DNA from: Pseudobdellovibrio exovorus JSS
Lineage (GTDB): Bacteria; Bdellovibrionota; Bdellovibrionia; Bdellovibrionales; Bdellovibrionaceae
Assembly (NCBI RefSeq): GCF_000348725.1
Contig: NC_020813.1
Coordinates: 434,001-498,000 of the forward strand
Direction of reading: 5' to 3'
Length of the DNA stretch: 64,000 nucleotides
Below are positions 18,557 through 23,401 of the stretch, one piece after another (position 1 is the stretch's first letter; the number at the start of each line of letters is the position of its first letter). The translations under genes were made by a program, and so were the position numbers. The notes beneath the pieces were generated by a model. The model was not told the origin of the DNA, ran no database searches, and saw nothing but the letters and a program-made list of their open reading frames with translations.

Positions 18557-19733
18557 GGGCGAAATCATCACCTCTAAGTCATGGCTGAATCGCGCTTTGG
18601 TGATGCAGCACTTCAATCCCACAACACAGTTAACAGCAACGGCAGATTCAGACGATGTACGCTCTTTACAAGGCGCCCTTCGCGACCTGTCTTTGTCCTT
18701 GCACGAATTTGATTTGGGATTAGGTGGTACAAGTTTTCGTTTTTTTTCTTTCCTAGTTTCGCGTTATCAGGGTGAGTTTTTAGTAAAAGCTCACGCACGC
18801 TTACTTGCGCGCCCTCAAGGTGAGTTGTTGCTCATATTAAAACAGTTGGGGGTTCAAGCTGAACTGCGGGACGACGGACTTCATCTGAAATCAAATGGCT
18901 GGTTATTAGATCCACGCACCTCAGTACAGGTGGCGGCAGAAGATTCGAGTCAGTTTATATCGGGGTTGTTATTAAGTGCATGGAACCTCGATCAAGAACT
19001 AAAAGTCGAAGTTAAAAAGCCGCTAACGTCTTTTGCCTATTTGCAAATGACGATTTCACTTTTACAAAAAAGTGGGATGAAGTTGCAAGTGACGGATACA
19101 GCAGACTCTTTACAAATCCTTATACCAGCCAAGCAAAAAGCATCTGTACTTGAGATCGAACCAGAACCAGATGTGAGTTCTGCGTTCTCTTTAGTGGCGT
19201 CAGCAGTTGTTAATGGTGATGTAGAAATTACGAATTGGAATGCGAACTCCACTCAACCAGATCAGATTTTTTTAAAGCTCTTTACGCAAATGGGAATTTC
19301 CTATCAAGAGTCCTTAGGTCAGTTAAAGGTACAAAAACAGCAAACATGGCGGGGAGTCAGTGCAAATCTGAACACATCACCGGACTTGTTTCCGGTTTTG
19401 GCGGTGTTGTGTGCTTTAGCTGAAGGCGAATCTATTTTGTCTGGAGCGGCTCATTTACGTCATAAAGAATCAGATCGCATTGCGAAGACTGCGGAGCTGC
19501 TGCAGCTTTATGGATTCCGTTATGAAGTTTTACCGGATGGTATGAAAATTTGGGGAAGAAGCTCGACGCAAAGTCCACAACAACCGACAGTGTTCAATCC
19601 TGAACATGATCATCGGATGGCCATGGCCGCCGCAGTTTTAAAGCTGGCGGGATATTCTATTCAGATTTCAACACCGGAAGTGGTGAATAAAAGTTATCCT
19701 ACCTTCTGGCGGGACGTGGAGCTGGTCGTATGA
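18543..19733 (+). CDS. aroA: EPSP synthase (3-phosphoshikimate 1-carboxyvinyltransferase)
   Basis: The sixth shikimate enzyme, joining PEP to shikimate 3-phosphate. The sequence is divergent but keeps the key sites: SKSWLNRAL (Lys and Arg of the GSKSxxNR motif), GGTSFRFF for the GNAGTxxR loop, DVSSAFSLVASAVV for GDxSSAAFF, HLRHKESDRIAK for the NxRxKExDR block, HDHRMAM and NKSYPTFW near the C-terminus. It is 396 residues, shorter than the usual 427, mainly by losing the N-terminal strand. It begins inside the aroB end, and its stop overlaps the next start by 4 nt (ATGA). Confidence 0.92.
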   Translation: MFHFKGEIITSKSWLNRALVMQHFNPTTQLTATADSDDVRSLQGALRDLSLSLHEFDLGLGGTSFRFFSFLVSRYQGEFLVKAHARLLARPQGELLLILKQLGVQAELRDDGLHLKSNGWLLDPRTSVQVAAEDSSQFISGLLLSAWNLDQELKVEVKKPLTSFAYLQMTISLLQKSGMKLQVTDTADSLQILIPAKQKASVLEIEPEPDVSSAFSLVASAVVNGDVEITNWNANSTQPDQIFLKLFTQMGISYQESLGQLKVQKQQTWRGVSANLNTSPDLFPVLAVLCALAEGESILSGAAHLRHKESDRIAKTAELLQLYGFRYEVLPDGMKIWGRSSTQSPQQPTVFNPEHDHRMAMAAAVLKLAGYSIQISTPEVVNKSYPTFWRDVELVV

Positions 19734-21490
19734 AGCGTGTATTCATTGGTCATCGGGGCACGGGAAAAACAGCTCTGCTTCAACGTCACAGTCAAATTTT
19801 TAATCAAATTTTCCCACAAATTCCTCACTTGGATTTAGATTTAGAAATTGAAAATTACGTCGGTGAACCACTCAGTGACTATTTCACACGCGTAGGTGAA
19901 GTGAAGTTTCGCCAAGTTGAGCAAGAGGTTTTTCTTCGAATTACAGCCCAACCGAACTTTGTGATTTCTTTGGGTGCGGGCTTTGATGTGAGCATTATCC
20001 CGAATGATATTGAGGTTGTTCTTGTGCGCCGCTTAAGTGATTCCGATGGAAGAATCTTTCTAGATCGTCCCCGTTTAAATACAGACGTGTCGTTATTAGA
20101 AGAGTATTATCAGCGGTATCATCAAAGGGAAAATCGTTACATCGAAGCGGCGGATTGGGTCTACCACATGCCGGAAGGCATAGAAGATGCTGGCCCCGCA
20201 GCTCATGCTATCGAGGGCTCTATTTTACGTCGTGATTTCAATGTCGAAAATGCATATTACACCTTAACGGCACAAGAGCTTCCATTCATCGAACAGCTCT
20301 TACGGAATTTTTCTAAGATAGAGTTAAGAACAGATCTGTTAGAGGCCGAGCAAATTGAGTCTTTGCTAGAGCGTTACCCTTGGCATGAATGGCTGGTATC
20401 AGTTCGTAGTGGTATGGAACTGAATTGGCAGCGTATTCACATGTTGGATACAGATATTCATTATTATCGTGAAGGCAGTCAGATTATTTCTTGTCACGAA
20501 GATCATATTAACTACGCCATTCAGCAGCTAGAGCCTTTTGTCGGTAAAGGGCATTTAAAGTTAAGCTCTTTGGTGGATAGTTTTGACGGACTCATTACGG
20601 GTTATCGTTGGCAGCAAGAGGACCCTGAGAATCGCAGCTTTCTACCGCGTTCAAGCATTGGCAGATGGCCATGGTTTCGTCAGCTATCTTCGTATTGGCA
20701 GAGTTTAAACTTTATTAAAAGTCGTACCGAGATGTCCGATCAGCCCAGTTGGTTTGAGTGGTTAAGTTTACCGCCTGAGGCACCACAGAAATGGGCGGCT
20801 GTTTTAGGACGACCAGTACATGCTTCGCGATCGCCTACGCAGCACCATGAGTTTTTTCATAAGCGGGAAACATTTTTTACGCGTGTGAGTTTGAATGAAG
20901 ATGAACTGTTGCAGCACCACAGTTTTCTATCTGAATTAAAATTGGGATATGCGGCGGTGACGTCTCCATTGAAAGAAATCGCTTTGCAGATTTCTAAGAA
21001 TCCGTCGCCAGTGTCTCAGAAGTTACAGGCTGCGAATACGCTCATGTTGAAAAATGATGGTTGGTGGGCACACAATACGGATCTAGAAGGATTTAAAAGT
21101 TTAACTCGTCAGTTGTCTAATCACGCCAATGTGGCCATTTGGGGTGGCGGTGGAACTCTGCAAATGATGAAAGAAGTTTTACCACAGGCAATCAGCTACT
21201 CGAGTCAGACGGGTAAAGTTCGTGATCCGAATCATTATAAAAACGAACAAGAACCACAGCATCTAGGTGAAGCGACCCAATTTGATGTCTTGATATGGGC
21301 AGCACCGCGCTTAGAAAAGACGTTATTTCCAAGCGAAAAGTTACAGTTTAAAGAAGTTCTTGATTTAAACTATGTTGACCATTCAATGGGGTTAGAGTTT
21401 GCAGTAAATCAGAAGATTCGTTATACCTCGGGACTTGAAATGTTTCGAGTGCAAGCGCTACATCAGCAAAAATTCTGGGAGCAAGTATGA
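19730..21490 (+). CDS. Trifunctional shikimate kinase / type I dehydroquinase / shikimate dehydrogenase
   Basis: A 586-residue fusion of three pathway enzymes. Residues 1 to about 165 are shikimate kinase: Walker A GHRGTGKT (7-14), acidic LDLDLEIE, GEVKFRQVE, SLGAGF, and LDRPRLN. Residues about 180-335 are type I 3-dehydroquinate dehydratase: Glu198-Leu-Arg200, SVRS, His256 in IISCHED, Schiff-base Lys277 in GHLKLSS, and a degraded SxxxG-SR lid (FLPRSSIGRW). Residues about 350-586 are shikimate dehydrogenase: SRSP (366-369), Lys415 in TSPLKE, NTD (449-451) and a glycine loop GGGG at 472-475. The order K-D-E is that of the C-terminal part of fungal AROM. It overlaps aroA and aroC by 4 nt each. 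The dehydroquinase assignment is the least certain of the three. Confidence 0.88.
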   Translation: MKRVFIGHRGTGKTALLQRHSQIFNQIFPQIPHLDLDLEIENYVGEPLSDYFTRVGEVKFRQVEQEVFLRITAQPNFVISLGAGFDVSIIPNDIEVVLVRRLSDSDGRIFLDRPRLNTDVSLLEEYYQRYHQRENRYIEAADWVYHMPEGIEDAGPAAHAIEGSILRRDFNVENAYYTLTAQELPFIEQLLRNFSKIELRTDLLEAEQIESLLERYPWHEWLVSVRSGMELNWQRIHMLDTDIHYYREGSQIISCHEDHINYAIQQLEPFVGKGHLKLSSLVDSFDGLITGYRWQQEDPENRSFLPRSSIGRWPWFRQLSSYWQSLNFIKSRTEMSDQPSWFEWLSLPPEAPQKWAAVLGRPVHASRSPTQHHEFFHKRETFFTRVSLNEDELLQHHSFLSELKLGYAAVTSPLKEIALQISKNPSPVSQKLQAANTLMLKNDGWWAHNTDLEGFKSLTRQLSNHANVAIWGGGGTLQMMKEVLPQAISYSSQTGKVRDPNHYKNEQEPQHLGEATQFDVLIWAAPRLEKTLFPSEKLQFKEVLDLNYVDHSMGLEFAVNQKIRYTSGLEMFRVQALHQQKFWEQV

Positions 21491-22509: not shown

Positions 22510-22615
22510 GTTATTAATTAAGCTGGAAAATCAGTGAATTAAATCGGAGTCTATTTTCTGTATTCAATTCCGGCCTTGCGCATTTCAAAATTTATCGGCA
22601 TACTCAATTCAAATT

Positions 22616-22785
22616 GTTAGGGAGTAGCCAACTTCTTAGAAGATAAGAAATCGACAAACTGGGTGATGTACCCCGGTTTCTTAGCAGCCTCAAAACTGTC
22701 GGCGAGACTAACTAGAGTCATATTAATATGGCTGTAGTGTCTCGCGTTTCGCAGTACCACAGCCTTAAATTTTTTGGAGGCTGTT
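22616..22785 (+). promoter_or_regulatory. yybP-ykoY manganese riboswitch with switchable terminator/RBS
   Basis: The aptamer shows GTTAG-GGAGTAGC (22616-22628) at its 5' end and GCGAGA-CTAAC (22702-22712) at its 3' end. P1 is the GTTAG/CTAAC pair enclosing the conserved GGAGTAGC and GCGAGA segments of the yybP-ykoY class. Downstream, GGCTGT (22730-22735) can pair with ACAGCC (22759-22764), followed by TTAAATTTTTT, a terminator-like stem. The same ACAGCC can instead pair with GGCTGT at 22779-22784, hiding the Shine-Dalgarno GGAGG (22776-22780). Mn2+ binding is therefore expected to open expression of the downstream exporter. The class is recognised from memory. Confidence 0.87.
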
Positions 22786-23340
22786 TTGGAATCCATAATT
22801 CAATCGTTTTTACTCGTGTTAGCCAGTGAGATGGGGGATAAAACCCAACTCATCGCTTTGGTTTTAGTGGCCCGTTTTCGGAAGCCGTGGACCATTATGG
22901 CGGGCATTCTGGTGGCGACCTTGGCGAACCATGGTTTAGCCTCATTTGCCGGAGAGATGGTCGCCAGTTGGCTGAGCCCGCAAGTCTTAAAGTGGGGACT
23001 GATCGCTCTGTTTGTCGGATTTGGTCTTTGGATTCTGATTCCTGATAAAGAAGAGTGCTTGGATGAAAGAAAAAACTACGGAGCTTTCTTAACCACACTC
23101 GTCGTTTTTTTCTTAGCCGAGATGGGGGATAAAACCCAACTGGCTACAGTGGCATTAGGAGCCAAGTTTAATTCGGTAGTGGCCGTGACGATAGGATCTA
23201 CGCTGGGAATGATGGTGGCCGATGGTTTAGCCGTATTTTTGGGGCCTCGTCTTTTACGTAAAATACCAATGAAAGCTGTGCGTATAACAGCATGTTTCTT
23301 ATTTATTGCATTTGCGATTTTGATTTATTTTCAGATTTAA
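22786..23340 (+). CDS. GDT1/TMEM165 (UPF0016) family manganese exporter
   Basis: An inner-membrane protein of 184 residues with six predicted helices in two repeats. Each repeat carries the family motif E-x-G-D-K-T-Q (SEMGDKTQ near residue 15 and AEMGDKTQ near residue 112). The family includes the bacterial Mn2+ exporter MneA and human TMEM165, and Mn2+/Ca2+ transport is the accepted role. The start is taken as TTG 22786, because GGAGG lies 5 nt upstream; TTG 22774 would bury that Shine-Dalgarno inside the gene. A yybP-ykoY riboswitch precedes it, which independently supports Mn2+ efflux. Confidence 0.92.
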   Translation: MESIIQSFLLVLASEMGDKTQLIALVLVARFRKPWTIMAGILVATLANHGLASFAGEMVASWLSPQVLKWGLIALFVGFGLWILIPDKEECLDERKNYGAFLTTLVVFFLAEMGDKTQLATVALGAKFNSVVAVTIGSTLGMMVADGLAVFLGPRLLRKIPMKAVRITACFLFIAFAILIYFQI

Positions 23341-23356
23341 CTGATGAAGAACAAAT

Positions 23357-23401
23357 GGAGTAGCTAGGACTAGCTACTCCGGTTTCTGTAGAGATTTCTA
23401 C
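23357..23401. terminator. Paired hairpins between the exporter and endonuclease genes
   Basis: GGAGTAGCTA-GGAC-TAGCTACTCC (23357-23380) is a perfect 10-bp stem. GTAGA-GATT-TCTAC (23388-23401) follows. Both sit between convergent stop codons. U-tracts are poor, so intrinsic termination is plausible but not certain. Confidence 0.55.

Follow-up and report, generated by a model that had tools for sequence, protein, structure and literature searches.

The leader of a GDT1-family exporter gene in the 64,000-nucleotide stretch of Pseudobdellovibrio exovorus JSS DNA analyzed here (the window) raises the question of how the gene is regulated. The initial annotation described a riboswitch in which one segment pairs either with an upstream segment as a terminator or with a downstream segment that hides the Shine-Dalgarno (SD) sequence, so that transcription and translation could both be controlled. 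Our analysis supports a different use of the same segments. With a probability of about 0.82, the leader is a yybP-ykoY riboswitch that Mn2+ turns ON and that controls translation of the GDT1-family Mn2+ exporter. Judged from sequence comparison, the upstream pairing is most likely an anti-sequestor rather than a terminator. The gene, its probable promoter and the aptamer between them are located as follows.

22576..22604, + strand: probable sigma-70-type promoter (TTGCGC 22576-81, 17-nt spacer, CATACT 22599-604)
22616..22712, + strand: yybP-ykoY Mn2+ aptamer, putative ligand from the family
22616-20/22708-12 and 22627-29/22701-03, + strand: aptamer helices P1.1 and P1.2, respectively
22621-26, + strand: aptamer loop L1, GGAGUA, with GAGA 22704-07
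22632-42, 22644-83 and 22684-99, + strand: aptamer P2, P3 (with L3, ACAAACU) and P4, respectively
22656, + strand: putative Mn2+-contacting A, counterpart of A41 of L. lactis, matched by loop position
22786..23340, + strand: gene of a 184-aa GDT1/UPF0016-family exporter with two E-x-G-D-K-T motifs, starting with TTG

The gene product matches PF01169 in two stretches (E 6e-46), which bears out its earlier assignment as a GDT1-type exporter. The TTG at 22786, also proposed there, aligns with the ATG, GTG and TTG starts of relatives. The promoter scores below the 9/12 cut-off of our promoter scan, which listed none. Most relatives have, by eye, TTGAC or TTGC and an A/T-rich -10 element at a similar distance before GTTAG. 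Transcription from this promoter would probably begin just ahead of the aptamer. Past the GDT1 gene, and before an endonuclease I gene convergent with it, lies a symmetric 11-bp hairpin (23356-23381) that is flanked by T-rich sequence on either strand and is probably a bidirectional terminator. Elsewhere in the neighborhood, a 586-aa protein (19730-21490) adjoining chorismate synthase carries a shikimate kinase and a shikimate dehydrogenase N-terminal domain on a single chain, and looks like a fused shikimate-pathway enzyme.

The identity of the aptamer is well supported. The initial annotation had proposed a covariance-model search as a check. The Rfam model RF00080 gives 28.2 bits on the leader (E 4e-6 in 351 nt), below its gathering score of 45 bits. 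With the window left out of its training set, a covariance model has the window aptamer as its sole match in the 64 kb, at 79.1 bits (E ~3e-23, E-values being rough). The published Mn2+ riboswitch of E. coli mntP (L185 468-558) scores 44.9 bits with RF00080, also just under the cut-off, so a low score with Rfam does not speak against membership of the window. The window-free model gives E. coli mntP 65.7 bits.

To describe the fold, GDT1 homologues and RF00080 matches were gathered from related genomes, and 16 leaders were aligned. A conserved element, GTTAGGGAGTAG...CGACAUACUG...CGAGACU, is found upstream of the GDT1 genes of relatives; in the window, GTTAGGGAGTAG begins at 22616. The consensus fold of the 16 relatives (RNAalifold) contains P1.1, P1.2, P2, P3 and P4, with changes on both sides in 24 of 35 pairs. 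The same fold is present in the window: P1 with L1 GGGAGUAG, P2, P3 with a CAUACU-type L3, and P4; docking of L1 and L3 is predicted. L3 reads CAAACU in the window and in G048, and CAUACU in most relatives. The L3 adenosine is invariant in the alignments of relatives and corresponds to A22656. The whole leader folds better than 200/200 shuffles (z -4.1). The Rfam alignment places the last aptamer helix at 22684-90/22729-35. We consider this a misalignment, since P1.1 is GUUAG:CUAAC and P4 is small in the comparative fold. The window leader is an ordinary and genuine member of the yybP-ykoY (RF00080) family, as the initial annotation had recognized. Mn2+ is the likely ligand by analogy with the family.

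The aptamer is widespread among relatives. A lineage model built from the 16 relatives finds it in 43/141 genomes of the order and 46/291 genomes sampled from the phylum. The curated Rfam cut-off is reached in 1/61 genomes of the family, and most Bdellovibrionota aptamers are missed. Betaproteobacterial GDT1 leaders found with the first lineage model are mostly above the cut-off with RF00080 too. Both models therefore describe one family. Three canonical-looking outliers (G314, G296) aside, the genes following the collected leaders encode GDT1 or MntP (PF02659). The G-C pair of P1.2 (GGGAGUAG/CGAGAC) is often A-U (GGGAGUAA/UGAGAC) in MntP leaders, and it is U-A in G306. The pair is invariant in the first, 16-leader alignment, but covaries once the MntP leaders and G306 are considered. 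This compensatory change falls where the aptamer is most conserved. GGGAGUAA and UGAGAC replace GGGAGUAG and CGAGAC in L061, L062, L063, L068, L069, L077, L087 and L096, which are mostly MntP leaders. No aptamer was detectable before the GDT1 genes (61-68% identical) of the close relatives L002 (G008), L004 (G003) and L012 (G001); within this genus it has apparently been lost or replaced. Cobalamin riboswitches are found near GDT1 in two relatives (L002 1281-1453 and L003 2858-3020, both - strand).

Downstream of the aptamer, the expression platform contains the following elements.

22703..22744, + strand: anti-P1 hairpin (OFF state), CGAGAC 22703-08 with GUCUCG 22739-44, seen in OFF folds of the window and relatives
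22730..22735, + strand: segment 2, GGCUGU, in the anti-P1 hairpin or paired with segment 3
22759..22765, + strand: segment 3, ACAGCCU (ACAGCC 22759-64), pairing with segment 2 as the anti-sequestor (proposed ON state) or with segment 4 as the sequestor (OFF state)
22765..22775, + strand: UUAAAUUUUUU, more likely an unstructured A/U-rich stretch ahead of the SD than a terminator U-run
22776..22784, + strand: SD GGAGG 22776-80, overlapping segment 4, AGGCUGU 22778-84 (GGCUGU 22779-84)

Segments 2, 3 and 4, the SD, the aptamer start and the start codon are all present where the initial annotation placed them. The anti-P1 hairpin, which ties the segments to the ligand, was missed in that reading. 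It excludes P1 by using the P1 3' strand, and it also holds segment 2. The helices therefore form a chain of exclusive pairings: the anti-P1 hairpin and P1 share the P1 3' strand, the anti-P1 hairpin and the 2:3 helix share segment 2, and the 2:3 and 3:4 helices share segment 3. In the OFF fold of the window, 22777-84 is mostly paired (P_unpaired 0.05).

The claim that one segment is common to two mutually exclusive stems held up well. When 22713-22790 is dinucleotide-shuffled, a 6-mer with its complement on both sides arises in 2/20,000 cases; among 78-nt tiles of the window, 0/1,640 contain one. We compared the platform in 46 Bdellovibrionota leaders, the window and 45 related ones. The 2:3 helix is paired in 94.9% of cells, with both-side changes in 4/6 pairs and 15 compensatory cells; sliding its partner lowers the pairing to 24-47%. 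The anti-P1 hairpin (18 pair columns) is paired in 87.9% of cells and has both-side changes in 10 pairs. The 3:4 helix, between segment 3 and the SD region, is 72.0% paired, and its register in the window is shifted relative to the consensus. Together, the OFF hairpins are 83.4% paired with 16 pairs changed on both sides, and slid versions reach at most 54%. Where segment 2 is variant, the leader's own segment 3 is a better pairing partner than the others are on average, in 18/18 leaders. In permutations, the observed mean was reached in 0/5,000 cases for both helices. The relatedness of the leaders inflates the covariation counts; double changes are found in several lineages (the window, G006 and G120; G016 and G007; G306/G325 and G239), so in our judgment they go beyond one or two events. 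These computations directly show the aptamer, the alternative helices with their conservation and covariation, and the gene. As in a translational platform, two conserved helices exclude each other and one of them contains the SD.

These helices suggest how the switch may operate. At low Mn2+, the P1 3' strand (GAGAC) would pair with the downstream GUCUCG to form the long anti-P1 hairpin, holding segment 2. Segments 3 and 4 would then pair and hide the SD (OFF). When Mn2+ is docked between L1 and L3, P1 would be held and the anti-P1 hairpin blocked. Segment 2 would take segment 3 once it is transcribed, leaving the SD open long enough for a ribosome. Folding of nascent RNA is consistent with this order: with the RNA end at 22765-22777, the 2:3 helix is ~100% populated if P1 is held, and the anti-P1 hairpin dominates if it is not. 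The direction of the switch (ON with Mn2+) and the kinetic nature of the ON state are inferred.

Similar behavior is reported for known members of the family. Control by yybP-ykoY has been reported in 328/333 screened strains with a UPF0016 gene (PMC7380456). The E. coli mntP riboswitch is translational and ON with Mn2+, and its ribosome-binding site (RBS) is inaccessible without Mn2+ (PMC11647493). It shares the aptamer class, direction and level of control with the reading proposed for the window. However, mntP encodes another exporter family behind a longer leader; the sequence comparison with it covers the aptamer. In L. lactis, P1.1 is the switch helix and competes with a downstream terminator hairpin (PMC11087558), and A41 in L3 gives its N7 to Mn2+ (PMC9190785). 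The window likewise sets P1.1 against a downstream hairpin and keeps the aligned counterpart of A41. Unlike the transcriptional L. lactis switch, its hairpin has no U-tract, and the proposed model acts on SD accessibility. Betaproteobacterial and myxobacterial GDT1/UPF0016 leaders carry the same aptamer upstream of GDT1. By eye, betaproteobacterial leaders (L134, L126, L129 and others) also have a similar anti-P1 hairpin and palindromic GGCCGG-type segments. The segment sequences of both groups differ from those of Bdellovibrionota, and many of these leaders pass the Rfam cut-off, whereas those of Bdellovibrionota mostly fail.

The L. lactis case raises the possibility that the anti-P1 hairpin itself terminates transcription without Mn2+, with 3:4 pairing as a second OFF layer. 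Evidence for this comes from one genus, g6, which is probably Bdellovibrio. In 8/9 GDT1 leaders of this genus, a UUUCUUUUU-type tract directly follows the anti-P1 hairpin, and T there averages 7.1/9 in the nine g6 GDT1 leaders versus 3.1 in other GDT1 leaders. The g6 leaders listed with UUUCUUUUU-like tracts are L079, L080, L065, L071, L076, L082, L070, L088 and L089. Across the 46 leaders, T after the hairpin is 4.57 per 10 nt, part of which is a T paired inside the hairpin. Since U-tracts follow the anti-P1 hairpin in g6 and T is not enriched after segment 3, any terminator in the group would be the anti-P1 hairpin, formed without Mn2+. A simple terminator scan of two Bdellovibrio-like leaders did not report this hairpin. 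The scan accepts no long loops or interrupted stems, which may be the reason; the evidence for termination in g6 is therefore the U-tract. On these sequence grounds, the g6 hairpin is probably an intrinsic terminator that acts alongside the RBS sequestor, and control at both transcription and translation is plausible there. The dual control claimed initially may thus hold in g6, but through the anti-P1 hairpin, and not in the window, where the hairpin is followed by GUUUCGCAG and no U-tract. The enrichment comes mostly from one genus, and so from few independent events. For the window, termination at this hairpin is unlikely.

It is still less likely that the 2:3 stem acts as an intrinsic terminator while 3:4 hides the RBS, so that one segment would provide both levels of control. 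The stem and a six-U run do exist in the window, where 7/10 nt after segment 3 are T, above nearly all relatives. However, an intrinsic terminator is a stem with an immediate U-tract, and this run, described initially as following the stem, begins 5 nt past it (CC-UUAAA-UUUUUU). The terminator scan of the window did not report the 2:3 stem with the U-run. Among the 46 leaders, T after segment 3 is 2.80 per 10 nt, versus 2.82 expected. In addition, if 2:3 terminated and 3:4 hid the SD, neither state would be ON. The Mn2+-bound (P1) state frees segment 2 for 2:3 pairing, so a terminator there would shut the Mn2+ exporter off by Mn2+. To our knowledge, all published yybP-ykoY cases work in the opposite direction. 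Together, these points leave the terminator reading unsupported.

The argument for an anti-sequestor is weakest at the ON state, which would be kinetic or ribosome-assisted. In models that include no Mn2+, tertiary or ribosome energy, full-length window RNA at equilibrium favors the anti-P1 state by ~14 kcal/mol, and 3:4 still beats 2:3 by 3 kcal/mol with P1 forced. Whether P1 was held or not, folding at equilibrium failed by itself to reproduce the ON state in the window or across 50 leaders, where holding P1 opened the SD in 18 and closed it further in 9. The CAAACU form of L3, the shifted 3:4 register and the near relatives whose gene has no detectable aptamer also count against the proposed switch. 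Since the energies favor 3:4 in the finished RNA, the ON state must arise during transcription and then persist because strand exchange is slow or because the ribosome maintains it. An intact aptamer before a constitutively weak RBS, with 3:4 always winning and regulation elsewhere, such as Rho-dependent termination of the untranslated leader, would suit this preference and the cooperation of Rho and riboswitch at E. coli mntP (PMC11647493), but is very improbable, as it leaves the compensatory conservation of 2:3 purposeless and any Rho effect would still hang on the same translational switch.

The leader belongs to a known riboswitch class, and the mechanism is corrected: most likely, the shared segment switches the SD between a hidden and a free state, controlled by the anti-P1 hairpin. 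We tentatively suggest that Bdellovibrionota put one four-segment platform to two uses, though this broader picture is less likely than the reading of the window itself. It would be a translational kinetic switch in most leaders. In a single genus, probably Bdellovibrio, acquisition of a U-tract may have made the anti-P1 hairpin a terminator, so that the exporter is turned off at two levels. The window lineage would be single-layer, with a shifted, stronger sequestor, and ON only during transcription. The lineage-tuned model, with its 43 genomes of the order against the single genome of the family at the Rfam cut-off, fills an annotation gap. The ~50 leaders form a natural series for comparing translational and possibly transcriptional platforms of the same switch. 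For predatory bacteria, in which inducible tools are scarce, the leader is also a candidate element for Mn2+-inducible control.
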